Assembly: GCA_902776605.1 (NCBI GenBank)
Contig: CACYQQ010000001.1
Coordinates: 1-35,951, forward strand
Length of the DNA: 35,951 bases
Source: an uncultured Bacteroidales bacterium
Lineage (GTDB): Bacteria; Bacteroidota; Bacteroidia; Bacteroidales; UBA3663
Direction of reading: 5' to 3'
The translations under genes and the position numbers were made by a program. The notes under the pieces are model-generated. The model saw only the letters and a list, made by a program, of their open reading frames with translations. It did no database searches and was not told the DNA's origin. Of the stretch, positions 26,462 through 35,951 are shown piece after piece; the stretch's first letter is position 1; each line of letters begins with the position of its first letter.

Positions 26462-27046
26462 TCAAAAACCATTATACAAATCCTCTGGTTTTCGATTAAT
26501 CACTTTTTGAATAGCATCAAACTCTTTATTCAATAGCCATGAAAAGCGATCATCTTTTCCATTACCCCATGAAAAGAACATAACATCTGTATCTATACGA
26601 GCCTTTACTGCTCCTATAGAAAGAATCTTATCCAAATCAGATTTACTGATTGGATAAATCACACTTAAATCAAGAAGTGTAGTGGTTACGTAATTATCCT
26701 TCCACCCTACCCAACGAAAGGCATACATTCCATGAGTGGTTTTATCTTCAAATTTAGTCGAAGACAAAGTAATAATACTCCCATCTTTAAGTTTAATTAG
26801 CAACTTCCGACCCGGGCTTACCATAACTTTATCTTCCTTGAACTTAATTCTAATATAATAATTGACAATACCTGTTGAGTCTTTTTCATAGTCCAGACCG
26901 ACGTATATTTCGTCACTTAGTTCTGAAGTTTCGGAAATAATAATACCAATACCGTCGTCTTCGGATAGTTTTACGTACTCAAAATTCCAAGCTTTCAAAG
27001 TAAAAGCAAACACAGAAAAAAAGAATACAAACAAGAACTTTTTCAT
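26462..27046 (-). CDS. Exported protein of unknown function
   Basis: A 194-residue protein starting at 27046 (MKKFLFVFFFSVFAFTLKA, a clear signal peptide); an in-frame ATG ten codons earlier would spoil it. The mature part is rich in beta-strand-type segments with Lys/Asp/Ser and has one cluster of aromatic residues (MYAFRWVGWKDNY, about 117-129). I recognise no family. The composition is AT-rich compared with the polysaccharide genes to the left. It is 80 bp downstream of the GIY-YIG-like gene and 32 bp upstream of the DUF418 gene, all on one strand. Confidence 0.7.
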   Translation of the reverse strand: MKKFLFVFFFSVFAFTLKAWNFEYVKLSEDDGIGIIISETSELSDEIYVGLDYEKDSTGIVNYYIRIKFKEDKVMVSPGRKLLIKLKDGSIITLSSTKFEDKTTHGMYAFRWVGWKDNYVTTTLLDLSVIYPISKSDLDKILSIGAVKARIDTDVMFFSWGNGKDDRFSWLLNKEFDAIQKVINRKPEDLYNGF

Positions 27047-27126
27047 AGTTACAATAGATTTAGTATTGACAATCATTATAGTGGAACACGCAAAGAGGCA
27101 GCAACTGATTTCTATAACAAATTATT

Positions 27127-27801
27127 CTATATTTGTGCCTCCTTCTCCTCTCTTAATTTATACAAAGGCGTACCTTTATAACTGAAATACTTAGGGCCTT
27201 GATATGCTCCCGAGGTATTTTGTTTATCTGCAGGAAGGAAGGTTCCGACAAAAGCAGAGAGGCTATATAAACGTCCATCATACTCCACTTTGTCATCCGA
27301 AGCTACTTTAACATGTAGATTGAGTTCATCGAAAACAACTTCATCGCCGACAGAAATACCAACCATATGGAACTTAAATGGAGGTTTCTGCGTTCTTTTC
27401 TTTTTCTCTTCTGCCGAAGTCTGAATCCGTTTATCCTCTTCTTTACTCTTAGACACAACTGGTTTTCCGTCAACATATACATATAATGTTGCATCATCCA
27501 AAAGGTCAGCAAAATCACGCATGATATCAAGCGCTACATCTGGTGCTACGTTAAAGAATTCACGATTCTGCCGAATACGCAAATCTGTCAATCTATCAAT
27601 TTGCTTGTGTATCTGGCGTTCAATCAAGTCATACTTGGCTGTTTCGAGGGTTGCATAAATCTCGAACGGCAAAGGTACTGCAGTATTGTCCAGTTCCTTA
27701 GAACGGACATCTACAGGACGGGAACTTTTTCCAATTTTAACCCAGTCTTCTCTGAAACTGGGATTGGTTAAGATATATACAAATCCTTTTGACGTTTCCA
27801 T
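27127..27801 (-). CDS. GIY-YIG nuclease-superfamily protein, T5orf172-like
   Basis: A 224-residue cytoplasmic protein. The N-terminal half (about 6-100) shows the GIY-YIG layout: GFVYILTNPS, then WVKIGKSSRPVDVRSKELD, and later the helix with Glu in DLIERQIHKQI and the REFFNVAP strand. This matches the T5orf172 (phage-type) branch. A charged Lys/Glu-rich linker (about 120-142) leads to a small C-terminal domain (DGRLYSLSAFVGTFLP ... KYFSYKGTPLYKL) resembling DUF4357-type modules found with GIY-YIG nucleases. These proteins are thought to be DNA nucleases linked to mobile elements or restriction; activity here is inferred. It is AT-rich and likely horizontally acquired. Confidence 0.75.
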   Translation of the reverse strand: METSKGFVYILTNPSFREDWVKIGKSSRPVDVRSKELDNTAVPLPFEIYATLETAKYDLIERQIHKQIDRLTDLRIRQNREFFNVAPDVALDIMRDFADLLDDATLYVYVDGKPVVSKSKEEDKRIQTSAEEKKKRTQKPPFKFHMVGISVGDEVVFDELNLHVKVASDDKVEYDGRLYSLSAFVGTFLPADKQNTSGAYQGPKYFSYKGTPLYKLREEKEAQI

Positions 27802-27910
27802 AGTGTTAAAACGAATTAATTTTCCTTATAGGGACTCAACAAATAATCAAACCACGATATCACGAACTAGAATTAATAATAATTGCCCTTTTTTTCCATG
27901 TAGAACGGCA

Positions 27911-27942
27911 CAAAGATACAAAAAATCAAAGAGAAATGCAAG
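27911..27942 (-). promoter_or_regulatory. Promoter of the GIY-YIG-like gene
   Basis: On the minus strand CTTG (27939-27942), a 20-base spacer and TATCTTTG (27911-27918), giving a leader of about 100 bases. One transcript could cover this gene, the exported unknown and the DUF418 gene. The rest of the 516-bp gap 27802-28317 holds only the hairpin and vestige listed below. Confidence 0.65.
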
Positions 27943-28044
27943 TATTCTGCGCCAAATGTTATGATAATTGCAAAAATGTTCTTTTACTTTGCTTCTCGAC
28001 ACAACCATCGGAGAAAGATATAATCATAGGTGTAGCACAAAATT

Positions 28045-28089
28045 CAGCAACGAGATAAATCTGGGCTTTCCAAACTTATCTCGTTGCTG
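28045..28089 (-). terminator. 14-bp perfect hairpin, probable terminator of the ORF6N gene
   Basis: 28045-28058 pairs perfectly with 28076-28089 around a 17-base loop. On the minus strand the stem is followed by AATTTTG; on the plus strand by TTTGCTTTC. It lies about 230 bp after the ORF6N stop. Confidence 0.6.
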
Positions 28090-28119
28090 TTTGCTTTCGC
28101 GTATGAATGTATCCTAAAG

Positions 28120-28140
28120 TTAATACTCCTCCTCGTTGAA
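28120..28140 (-). pseudogene. Vestige of the 3' end of a DUF2795 gene
   Basis: Read on the minus strand this encodes FNEEEY then a stop, the same C-terminus as the intact DUF2795 gene at 32537-32758, with nearly identical bases (19 of 19 but one across the core). Just upstream in the same frame is a stop, so only the tail remains. It suggests a recombination scar. The match is short and could still be coincidence. Confidence 0.4.
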
Positions 28141-28317
28141 ATGGCTAAATCAAGTTTTAGTTTGATGATTATCAGTTAGATATTGATTTCTTAACGAATT
28201 TTAGCAAAATAAACCGCACCATCTGAGGCGATTAGGACAAAGAAAAGAGTTTTGGGGATAAAGAAACTCAGATTTGAATTTAGGGAAGGGTATCGCCACT
28301 AAACAAGCACATCTGAG

Positions 28318-29346
28318 TTAATGAAGAATAAGTGGCTGGTTAAGTAGAGTTGAATCTATCATAGACACGTATAAACTCATATCCTTAACTGGCTCTATAG
28401 ACATTATTCTCTTTCCTCCATCCTTTGATGATGCTCCACAATGATAGATTACCTCATCTGGAGTATTATGATCAAGGACAATATAGCGGTCATGGAACTT
28501 TCCGGCACCTACCTTCAATGTAATATTTAAATGAGGGTATTCCTGCAGTAGGTCATGGAACTCCGAAAGATGAAGCATTCCATGATTGTTATCAGAAATT
28601 ATTGTAATAGAAACTGTATCTGGAACATCTGACATCAAAGACAGCGTCTTTAGGTTTATATAGTTGTCAATAGCAATGATACTATGCTTTGCTTGCGCAT
28701 AAATCCGTTTATATGCTAAATCAGATTCTACGGGCTGTCCATTCAATATCAACCAACCTTGTTTTACAATTGGATCACCAAAATCCAACATTACATCTGC
28801 CAATTGAGATTTTGTCACAACTTCACCTAATGTACTGACAATAGATGCCACCTTATCATCAAGTGCAGACAAAGAACTTCGAACTTCCAGTAAATCTCTT
28901 GTATTTTCTGTTGTCTGAAGTGATAGACGGAGATAATCTCGCTGTCCAATGAGAGATTGATTATCAACAATAAAGTCCTTCATTTGCTTAAATGTGCGAA
29001 TCAAGGCTTTACTCTGACGTGATGCCAGTTCTCCCTTTAGCACAGTCATAAGCATGTAGATACCTTGTTCGGTAAAAACATAGGGTGCAGTTCTTCTTCC
29101 ACCCCAACTTGAGGTCAATTTTTTTGACCGCAAGATTTCTACCTCTTCAGAAGAGAGTTGAAACATAAAGTCCTCTTCAAACTTCTCTGCGTTATTCTTG
29201 ACTTGTTGATTGAAAGCTTTGGTTGTATATCCATATATAGCAGCCAAGTCCGAATCCAGCATCACCTGCTGACCTCGGAAGATGTAAATCATATCTTTGA
29301 ATGACTGAGCATCTATCTCTATCACACTTTCATTTTTCTTTGCCAT
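28318..29346 (-). CDS. ORF6N-domain DNA-binding protein with C-terminal phospholipase-D-like half
   Basis: A 342-residue protein. Residues about 12-100 form an ORF6N domain (IYIFRGQQVMLDSDLAAIYGY, FMFQLSSEEVEILRS, APYVFTEQGIYML), a DNA-binding module known from phage antirepressor-type proteins. A helical linker (about 110-190) follows. The C-terminal part resembles a single phospholipase-D/HKD half-site: KFHDRYIVLDHN gives His-x-Arg-x4-Asp (Arg in place of the usual Lys), followed by CGASSKDGG. ORF6N proteins with this tail are widespread in Bacteroidota accessory regions; their job is unclear (phage regulation or defence). The gene lies between an excisionase-like relic and the GIY-YIG gene. 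Confidence 0.82.
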   Translation of the reverse strand: MAKKNESVIEIDAQSFKDMIYIFRGQQVMLDSDLAAIYGYTTKAFNQQVKNNAEKFEEDFMFQLSSEEVEILRSKKLTSSWGGRRTAPYVFTEQGIYMLMTVLKGELASRQSKALIRTFKQMKDFIVDNQSLIGQRDYLRLSLQTTENTRDLLEVRSSLSALDDKVASIVSTLGEVVTKSQLADVMLDFGDPIVKQGWLILNGQPVESDLAYKRIYAQAKHSIIAIDNYINLKTLSLMSDVPDTVSITIISDNNHGMLHLSEFHDLLQEYPHLNITLKVGAGKFHDRYIVLDHNTPDEVIYHCGASSKDGGKRIMSIEPVKDMSLYVSMIDSTLLNQPLILH

Positions 29347-32824: not shown

Positions 32825-33508
32825 TCAGAAAGCGACCTGATAGTGCTGCTTGAAGAATCGGGGTTGGCGGATGGCCAATCCATAGTCGTACAGGTCCATG
32901 GTGACCTCAATATGGTCGCACTCACAGATCTCGTCCCAGTAACTCTCCATCTGGCGACCCGGCTGAATGCCACGCACAAAGAAGATGCCACGCTCACTGA
33001 GGTGCTGTTGCAACCAAGCGGCGAAATCGGCGGGTGACATCGAGGCCGGCGCGCCATTGACGACAATCATGTCGGCCACATAATCCTCGGGCAGCGCCTC
33101 GATGGAGTCAATAAAGGTGACACGTTCCGTAAATCCAGCAAAGAGAGAGAGATGTTGCAGGCAGCGGCGTTTCTGGTCCGCACCGGCTACCGAATGAATC
33201 ACGTTGCGCGAATCGACCATCAGCAACGGCATCTGCGAATAACCGGCATCGCAACCGATTTCCAAGATACGGCGGGCGCGGAACCGATTGGCCAGACGGA
33301 AGAGCAAAGTAGCTACCTTGAACTTCACGGGGCTGTCCTTGGGATATAGTTTCGACAACTTCTGATAAGCATAATAAGGGCATTTCTCTTCGATCACTTC
33401 CGTGATGACGGCATAGGCGAATGGAGAATGCACTCCATATCCCTTGCGATGCTTCAACTTGCGCACCCCCTTGCTTATGTAATCTTTCAGTTTCTTTTTG
33501 GTGCTCAT
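32825..33508 (-). CDS. Class I SAM-dependent methyltransferase-like protein
   Basis: A 227-residue cytoplasmic protein with a Rossmann-type SAM-binding motif I (RRILEIGCDAGYS, residues 79-91), motif II-like VIHSVAGADQ, and the acidic strand ADMIVVNGAPASM. The basic N-terminus KLKHRKGYGVHSPFAY is shared by many Bacteroidota proteins of this type, where it precedes the Rossmann fold. The substrate is unknown; it resembles O-methyltransferase-type folds. The gene starts only 5 bp after the stop of the ArgE-like gene, so the two are co-transcribed. Confidence 0.78.
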   Translation of the reverse strand: MSTKKKLKDYISKGVRKLKHRKGYGVHSPFAYAVITEVIEEKCPYYAYQKLSKLYPKDSPVKFKVATLLFRLANRFRARRILEIGCDAGYSQMPLLMVDSRNVIHSVAGADQKRRCLQHLSLFAGFTERVTFIDSIEALPEDYVADMIVVNGAPASMSPADFAAWLQQHLSERGIFFVRGIQPGRQMESYWDEICECDHIEVTMDLYDYGLAIRQPRFFKQHYQVAF

Positions 33509-33513
33509 GTTTA

Positions 33514-34647
33514 TTATAAGGTCAGTTTTAATAGTATCTCTTTGTACAAGCGGATTGCTTCACGAATTTCCTGTTTCTCGATGTATTCATCCGCTGTGTG
33601 CGAACGTGCCGAGTCGCCAGGACCCATCTTCACACTGGGGCACGACAGTAATGCCTGGTCGCTCAACGTGGGCGAACCGAACTGCACGGCATCGGGCACT
33701 ACCTCCAGGATGCGACGCAGGAGTGGGTGATCGGTTGCGATGTGCGATGGTTGCAACCTTGTGCTGCGTGGCACTAACTCGACAGGAGCGACAGCCTCTT
33801 GCAACTTGGCCGCTACCTCCTGGTTGCTATAGGCATCCGTGGTACGCACATCCACCACGAACGAGCATTTGTCGGGCACAACGTTATGTACGGTTCCTGC
33901 CTGAATCACCGTGGTCGTGACCTTGACCGGACCCAACGTAGGTGACTCTTTGTCAATACGGTAGTTCCTCAACGTCTGGATGGCATCCAGAGCCAAGTAG
34001 AGAGCATTGACACCCTCGTTGCGAGCAGCATGTCCCGACTTGCCATGAGCGGTACCGTCCAGCACCATAAGTCCCTTCTCGGCCACGGCGATGCGCACGC
34101 CCCCTTTCACGTTGGGATTCATGCCGGTAGGTTCGCCGACCCATGCCACATCCACCTTGGGCAGCAGGGGCAATACACTCGACAGACCGTTCTTGCCCGA
34201 CACCTCCTCCTCGCACGAGGCCAGGAACACAAGGTTGTAGTTCAATGGCTTGGGTTCGAAGGTTGGCAAATCGGCAAAAGCCGTTCCCGTCAGGTAGAGA
34301 AACACATGCAGCAACGAGACCAAGGATGCCCCGTCATCGTTGGCTCCCAGACCATAGATGCGGTCGCCCACCTCGGTGGCAGCGAAGGGCTCGTAGGTCC
34401 ACGACTCGACCGGTTTGACGGTGTCAATATGGGCATTGAGCAACAGCGTGGGTCGATGCTCGTCGTAGCCGGGTGCCACCATCCACAGGTTGTTTCCCGA
34501 ACGGTTGACTTTCAATGCACTGACCTGACCCAGATACTGCTCCAAGAGGTCTGCCACGGCCGATTCTTCACGACTCACAGAAGGAATCGCAAGCATCTTT
34601 TTCAGCAAACCGATTGCCGCATCAGAAATGTTCAGGTCAGTTATCAT
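33514..34647 (-). CDS. argE: M20 family N-acyl-ornithine deacylase (ArgE-like)
   Basis: A 377-residue zinc-dependent M20 peptidase-fold enzyme. It shows the metal-ligand motif NAHIDTVKP (H73, catalytic D75), LGANDDGAS (D104), the general-base ASCEEEVSGKNG (E146-E148), the dimerisation-lid segment AHGKSGHAARNEG and the C-terminal SARSHTADEY. Segment by segment it follows Bacteroidota acetylornithine deacetylases of arginine synthesis, which in Bacteroides act on N-succinylornithine. The start at 34647 is preferred over 34677 because the promoter lies between them. Other arginine genes are not in the window, so the assignment rests on sequence alone. Confidence 0.78.
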   Translation of the reverse strand: MITDLNISDAAIGLLKKMLAIPSVSREESAVADLLEQYLGQVSALKVNRSGNNLWMVAPGYDEHRPTLLLNAHIDTVKPVESWTYEPFAATEVGDRIYGLGANDDGASLVSLLHVFLYLTGTAFADLPTFEPKPLNYNLVFLASCEEEVSGKNGLSSVLPLLPKVDVAWVGEPTGMNPNVKGGVRIAVAEKGLMVLDGTAHGKSGHAARNEGVNALYLALDAIQTLRNYRIDKESPTLGPVKVTTTVIQAGTVHNVVPDKCSFVVDVRTTDAYSNQEVAAKLQEAVAPVELVPRSTRLQPSHIATDHPLLRRILEVVPDAVQFGSPTLSDQALLSCPSVKMGPGDSARSHTADEYIEKQEIREAIRLYKEILLKLTL

Positions 34648-34665
34648 TGTATTAAATTTTGGGCG

Positions 34666-34696
34666 CAAAGATAGCACATTTTAGTGAAAAAACAAG
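34666..34696 (-). promoter_or_regulatory. Promoter of the argE-methyltransferase unit
   Basis: On the minus strand CTTG (34693-34696), a 19-base spacer and TATCTTTG (34666-34673), followed by CGCCC. It is divergent from the next promoter and mirrored with it. Confidence 0.65.
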
Positions 34697-34712
34697 ATTA
34701 TAGCCAAAGAAT

Positions 34713-34744
34713 TTTGCAAAATTGACATAATTTGCCTATCTTTG
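34713..34744 (+). promoter_or_regulatory. Promoter of the prfB-derived reading frame
   Basis: TTTG (34713-34716), a 20-base spacer and TATCTTTG (34737-34744), a perfect consensus match. The -7 region 34736-34749 is the exact reverse complement of 34661-34674 in the divergent promoter. Confidence 0.82.
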
Positions 34745-34806
34745 CGCCCGAATTACATTAAATAGCCAATATTTATAAGGCGAAATCGTCTAAAAACTAC
34801 ATTTTC

Positions 34807-35787
34807 GTGATTACAATTGAGCAACTGAAGGCAACGCAAGATCGCCTTGCCGACTTGAAACGTTATCTCGACATCGACAACAAACTCATCCATACAGGTC
34901 TGGAACCCACTCCTGCCTATCTTCGCAAAATAAAGACTTCACTTTTTACCCTCTCACGACTAGACGAAAAGGTACAACAGCGAATCACCATATCAGCTTT
35001 TGCGCTGTTTATAAAGAAGTGTCGTCTTCAAGGCCTTGTAATCTGGCTCTTTAACGTTTTCGGCCATAAGATTAAGCAGAACCTGTTGCCCCCTCCTATT
35101 TTTAAAACAGACTTGATACTCACGAAAGATGAAGAAGGAAATGGTACGATACCATTCAGTAGTATAAGTTCGGGAGAAAGGCAAATAGCCTATACCATTA
35201 GTAACCTGATGTACCATCTTGTAAATGTTGATTCTGAGTGGAATGACAGTTATAGGAAGGACAAAGACCATCTGGAAGTTATCAAATATCGCTATATGAA
35301 CGTGATATTTGACGAGGTGGAACTCTACTATCACCCGGAGATGCAACGGCAGTTTACAAATATCATGATGAAAACACTGCGGAGCGTCCATTTTGCAAAT
35401 ATGCGGGGTATCAATATTATGATAGTGACCCATTCACCGTTTGTTCTTTCAGACATTCCTAATAGCAATGTTCTTTGCTTGGGGGATGGTGACAACCTTG
35501 AAGCGAAGACACTTGGTGGTAATATCATGGAGATGCTTGGAAACTCGTTCTTTATGAAGAACTCCATAGGAGATTTGATAAAAGAAGAGATTGCAGACAT
35601 TGTTGATATGTATAATCGGGTTGTTAGGGAAAGAAAAGATGTTGGAAATGAATTTGCCACTAAACGTGGACGGTTTAACTATATTTGTGAGAATATAGGG
35701 GATGATTTCTTGAAGCAAATGCTTCAAAGAATGGTTAATGAAATTTATGTGATGATAAAGAAAAACAGGGAGAATGTTCAGGTTTAA
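34807..35787 (+). CDS. Chimeric frame: release factor 2 N-terminus fused to a Walker-A-less AAA/ABC-type ATPase
   Basis: A 326-residue frame with a GTG start. Residues 1-28 (MITIEQLKATQDRLADLKRY, then LDIDNKLI) match the start of Bacteroidota peptide chain release factor 2. From about residue 30 the sequence is an ATPase C-terminal half: signature FSSISSGERQ (118-126), Walker B NVIFDEVELYYHP (165-177) and the H-loop region IVTHSPFVLSD (206-216), as in OLD/AbiEii/Septu-type SMC-like ATPases. The N-terminal half with Walker A is missing. Base composition turns AT-rich at the junction near 34890. It is either a recombination product driven by the prfB promoter or an assembly join. ATPase function is unlikely without Walker A unless supplied in trans. 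Confidence 0.75.
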   Translation: MITIEQLKATQDRLADLKRYLDIDNKLIHTGLEPTPAYLRKIKTSLFTLSRLDEKVQQRITISAFALFIKKCRLQGLVIWLFNVFGHKIKQNLLPPPIFKTDLILTKDEEGNGTIPFSSISSGERQIAYTISNLMYHLVNVDSEWNDSYRKDKDHLEVIKYRYMNVIFDEVELYYHPEMQRQFTNIMMKTLRSVHFANMRGINIMIVTHSPFVLSDIPNSNVLCLGDGDNLEAKTLGGNIMEMLGNSFFMKNSIGDLIKEEIADIVDMYNRVVRERKDVGNEFATKRGRFNYICENIGDDFLKQMLQRMVNEIYVMIKKNRENVQV

Positions 35788-35951
35788 ATCATCGGTAAAC
35801 CCTGTAGAGTTGAAGAGACGATACTTGAAAAAGTATAAAATGAAATCCCTTCAACGAAAGCTTAATGCCCTTTTGGCGGCTTATCCTGAAATTAAGGATG
35901 AGTTGCCAGATGATTGTGATGCAAAGAAACTACTTATTGGTGATTTCAAGT
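35774..35951 (+). CDS. Partial gene overlapping the ATPase, possible defence-system partner
   Basis: An open frame from the ATG at 35774, overlapping the ATPase stop by 14 bp and running off the window after 59 codons. It encodes a basic helical start (MFRFKSSVNPVELKRRYLKK) and then LAAYPEIKDELPDDCDAKKL. The overlap points to a two-gene operon with the ATPase. In many two-gene defence systems with SMC-like ATPases the second gene is an HNH or Toprim nuclease, but no such motif is visible in the part seen, so I assign no function. Confidence 0.55.
   Translation, partial: MFRFKSSVNPVELKRRYLKKYKMKSLQRKLNALLAAYPEIKDELPDDCDAKKLLIGDFK

Follow-up and report, generated by a model that had tools for sequence, protein, structure and literature searches.

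The open frame that appears to fuse the start of prfB (release factor 2, RF2) to a defence-type ATPase, at the end of the 35,951-bp contig that constitutes the whole window analysed here (C1), is almost certainly an assembly artefact in which fragments of three unrelated genes have been falsely joined near the contig tip. The frame is real as sequence: it lies on the forward strand, starts with GTG at 34807, stops at 35787 and runs uninterrupted for 326 codons. Matches to prfB, to a GT2-family glycosyltransferase and to the ATPase fall on successive segments, and the frame is therefore prfB, then GT2, then ATPase, pieces that are unrelated to one another and each cut internally at the junctions. 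They cover residues 1-29 of prfB, positions 205-283 of the 304 in the GT2 profile and residues 477-708 of a 708-residue ATPase, and the GC content falls stepwise along them (0.46, 0.43 and 0.37). Because the GT2 match extends up to 35088 and DNA similarity to the ATPase locus of another genome (L026) starts at 35070, there are two junctions, at ~34870-34893 and ~35071-35088. The only domain that Pfam finds in the frame is the ATPase end (AAA_21). The initial annotation, which described a prfB head fused in frame to a truncated ATPase, was thus right about the single open frame and about both of its ends, but wrong about a direct passage from one to the other; residues ~22-94 are the GT2 piece, which it had overlooked.

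The prfB head (34807-34893, forward strand), comprising the first ~29 codons, is genuine up to junction 1. Frame residues 1-29 share 90% amino acid identity with residues 1-29 of the prfB product in genome G010 and match the prfB profile with an E value of 2.5e-13. Upstream, a repeat search and the sequence itself delineate a divergent promoter region between an M20 peptidase gene and prfB (34658-34752). DNA resembling this region precedes intact prfB in relatives, in four of which (L005, L007, L009 and L010) the M20 peptidase gene lies directly across the promoter from prfB, and the resemblance indicates that 34658-34752 is the genuine prfB upstream region. The same interval holds two facing elements (TATCTTTGCGCC) that form a 17-nt imperfect, near-perfect inverted repeat; both are copies of TAnnTTTG, which we take to be the Bacteroidetes-type -7 element. 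A programmed +1 frameshift occurs in prfB of E. coli and many other bacteria. The prfB genes of this genus (34807-34893 and L098-L108) are single open frames without it, and several begin with GTG.

The middle piece (34870-35088, forward strand) is identified by both profile and genome matches as an internal stretch of ~73 residues from the C-terminal region of a GT2 glycosyltransferase. The GT2 profile aligns to frame residues 22-94 with an E value of 1.2e-16, and the piece lacks both the N-terminal domain and the last ~20 residues of the parent. When the 299 residues that follow prfB were compared with same-genus genomes, a 35% match was found in G014 over query residues 1-68, and the matching protein segment turned out to be the C-terminal part of a GT2 enzyme. 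The protein at L025 that matches the middle piece is a GT2 (Pfam PF00535), and across the order 20 other genomes have GT2 proteins matching frame residues ~20-95. A GT2 search of the genome itself recognised no parent of the piece; the other GT2 matches there look like separate, different genes.

The last piece (35071-35787, forward strand) comprises the final ~235 residues of an ATPase that is Septu-like (PDC-M62A), as judged from homology to L026, PADLOC families and Pfam AAA_21. Among the public genome contigs scanned there is one close relative, the L026 ATPase, which matches the 299-residue query only from its residue 62; by BLAST the match to L026 begins at frame residue 89, while similarity at the DNA level sets in abruptly from 35070. 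The piece shares 76% identity with residues 477-708 of the 708-amino-acid L026 protein and matches PDC-M62A with an E value of 1.5e-32 and PtuA with one of 3.7e-12. The signature, Walker B and H-loop motifs that had been assigned to it are indeed seen (SSGERQ, MNVIFDE and THSPF), and the Walker A motif, which the L026 protein carries (GRNGAGKS), is missing together with the rest of the N-terminal ~475 residues. This N-terminus, which the initial annotation had proposed to seek elsewhere in the genome, is absent from the assembly, and searches of phages, plasmids and viral contigs returned distant relatives of the ATPase or none. Overlapping the end of the ATPase is the start of a PDC-M62B/PtuB-like gene for an HNH-type partner (35774-35951, forward strand), cut after 59 codons by the contig end; it is 58% identical to the gene after the ATPase in L026, which matches PDC-M62B and PtuB. 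The pair thus resembles Septu (PtuA/PtuB) and the PADLOC candidate system PDC-M62 in having an HNH-type partner directly downstream of the ATPase, with the overlapping gene order of L026, but differs from them in that the ATPase in the window lacks its N-terminal part, and with it the full motif set, and in that its partner is incomplete. Though genuine, the pair is unremarkable, a truncated representative of a candidate defence family that is already known.

The fate of the rest of prfB also argues for false joins. The assembly has 280 contigs, totals 2.87 Mb and is 79.8% complete; this fragmentation and completeness suggest a metagenome origin for the genome. Junction 1 lies ~1.1 kb from the end of C1. 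A prfB search of this assembly found the head on C1, the tail on C207 and nothing between, so that the intact copy predicted to lie elsewhere did not appear; the assembly has a single PCRF domain, which belongs to RF1 on contig C27. Residues 221-367 of prfB are encoded, at 95% identity, at positions 447-887 of C207. There, too, the gene is chimeric: the contig starts with the AAA domain of an NtrC-type sigma-54 activator, which is continued in the same frame by the RF-1 domain from the C-terminus of prfB (L037, positions 3-890). Where a related activator continues ...YYRINTIHLALPPLRDR..., C207 has ...LLYRINTIEITIDPGRLTWDTF..., the final part of which is prfB. Among 14 same-genus genomes, prfB is full length in 11 and cut by a contig end in 1 more, and each relative has one prfB. 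Neither 15 same-genus genomes nor the scanned contigs of public genomes contained a similar fusion. Where UGA serves as a stop codon RF2 is essential, and two broken pieces of its gene, differently fused and with no intact copy, consequently point to false joins. The false assembly join that the initial annotation listed among its options is therefore supported by three truncated parents, the lack of an intact prfB and a second prfB chimera. Three features expected of an assembly chimera are present, namely unrelated truncated parts, relatives that have the intact gene and not the join, and an essential gene without an intact copy. In Pfam searches of 20 terminal frames from a sample of other short contigs, no obvious chimera was detected, a result that counts against the artefact reading; the fault thus seems to be local rather than general in the assembly, and widespread chimerism was rejected.

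Taken together, these observations suggest how the frame came about. It is almost certainly not a gene but a chimera that arose when the fragmented draft genome was assembled, or when the library was made. On this reading, a contig that ended in the conserved prfB was wrongly extended at codon ~22-29 into a GT2 fragment, probably through a short common stretch. A second wrong extension, at another short similar stretch near QNLL, would then have led from the GT2 fragment to the tail of a Septu-like ATPase/HNH operon and so to the present contig end. The remainder of prfB, its C-terminus, would have been assembled separately on C207 and joined in frame to the NtrC-type AAA domain. Library chimeras produced by template switching would be expected to have the same appearance.

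Both junctions contain residues that can be assigned to either parent. At junction 1 (34870-34893) the ambiguous stretch is LDIDNKLI, for which prfB has LDI[DE]NK[KIL]I and GT2 has HIDNP[VL][IL]H; at junction 2 (35071-35088) it is IKQNLL, for which GT2 has IVRNLLSNNP and the ATPase has IMQNLLPPPIF. The parent families at junction 1 share a mean of 3.1 identities per 8 residues, more than random position pairs would give (P for 3 or more, 0.0085), but in a stretch that was chosen post hoc, so that the support is weak. In the same test the C207 join was borderline, and the patterns available for junction 2 were poorly anchored. Profile alignments overlap by 8 residues at junction 1 and by 6 at junction 2 (GT2 profile plus BLAST), and 300 simulated random fusions gave overlaps as large or larger, with medians of 6 and 46 residues. 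The overlap is thus uninformative, and it was rejected as proof of shared sequence. Since the junction 1 stretch was selected after the fact and the overlap does not discriminate, the short similar stretches are a likely, rather than a demonstrated, cause of the joins. All three joins, two on C1 and one on C207, are in frame, which counts against the artefact reading, as this outcome is expected once in 27 times by chance if the joins were random, though an in-frame result would be favoured where joins fall at similar coding stretches.

Published work describes false paths in k-mer assembly and, for metagenomes, chimeras or local errors of assembly (PMC8172020, PMC7111523). The present case is like the chimeric joins and local errors reported in metagenome-assembled genomes (PMC7111523, PMC8172020) in that an unsupported-looking join of unrelated sequences affects a conserved gene near a contig end in a fragmented draft; it is unlike them in having two junctions 200 bp apart with the frame kept throughout, so that the result is gene-like. 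Its sole importance is one of caution: chimeras that keep the frame slip through gene callers as fused proteins. Fusions near the ends of draft contigs should accordingly be compared with relatives, and a search should be made for whatever half of the broken gene is missing from the fusion.

Several biological explanations must be weighed against these false joins. It is highly improbable that the fusion is real in the sense that the strain expresses a Septu-like ATPase without Walker A from the prfB promoter, with a linker derived from GT2 and an intact prfB that was not assembled. Slightly less credence still can be given to a genuine rearrangement that left a non-functional in-frame scar, with an intact copy of prfB among the 20% of the genome that the assembly lacks. 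The incompleteness of the assembly does leave room for a second prfB, but three independent illegitimate in-frame events, two on C1 and one on C207, would have been needed in or next to prfB copies, and the relatives have one prfB each.

Equally implausible is the insertion of a mobile or defence island at the 5' end of prfB, which would leave the prfB head at the island end to drive the ATPase. Elements of the SXT/R391 family are known to integrate into prfC, at its 5' end, and provide a precedent for insertion near the start of a release-factor gene, and in the window a prfB promoter and head do precede a defence-type operon in a single frame. Unlike the SXT/R391 case, the gene is prfB, and neither an integrase nor an att site accompanies the join in the visible 1.1 kb up to the contig end, nor is there a long repeat at the junction. 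The end of an element would bring a complete gene or an att site rather than internal pieces of a GT2 and an ATPase, no relative carries an insertion in prfB, and what precedes the remainder of prfB on C207 is a truncated NtrC-type gene, not the end of an element. The capture of the prfB promoter by an island, as proposed in the initial annotation, is thus not supported, given the lack of a recombinase and of any relative with the fusion, the GT2 piece between the two parts and the second fusion on C207. A DNA inversion (phase variation) that changes what follows the prfB head, also considered there, has next to no probability: invertible loci are common in Bacteroidales, but the sole inverted repeat bracketing the junction within 33000-35951 is 14 nt long with 93% identity (34713-34726 and 35386-35399), a size expected by chance, the 17-nt repeat belongs to the divergent promoter, no partner locus or recombinase was found and no relative has the fusion, the inversion would silence an essential gene, and the GT2 piece and C207 would be left unexplained.

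Other features of the contig were noted in passing. A response regulator with a Fis-type HTH and without an AAA domain is encoded at 133-759. Relatives carry orthologues of much the same length (82% identity in G002), which mark it as a normal protein and speak against a false join as the reason for the missing domain. A polysaccharide-utilisation region (746-20960) encodes a GH3 protein, an alpha-L-arabinofuranosidase, SusC/SusD-like proteins, a DUF4419 protein and a GH88 enzyme. A low-GC patch at 26462-29346, which is probably of phage origin, encodes a T5orf172 (GIY-YIG-like) protein and an ORF6N-domain protein.
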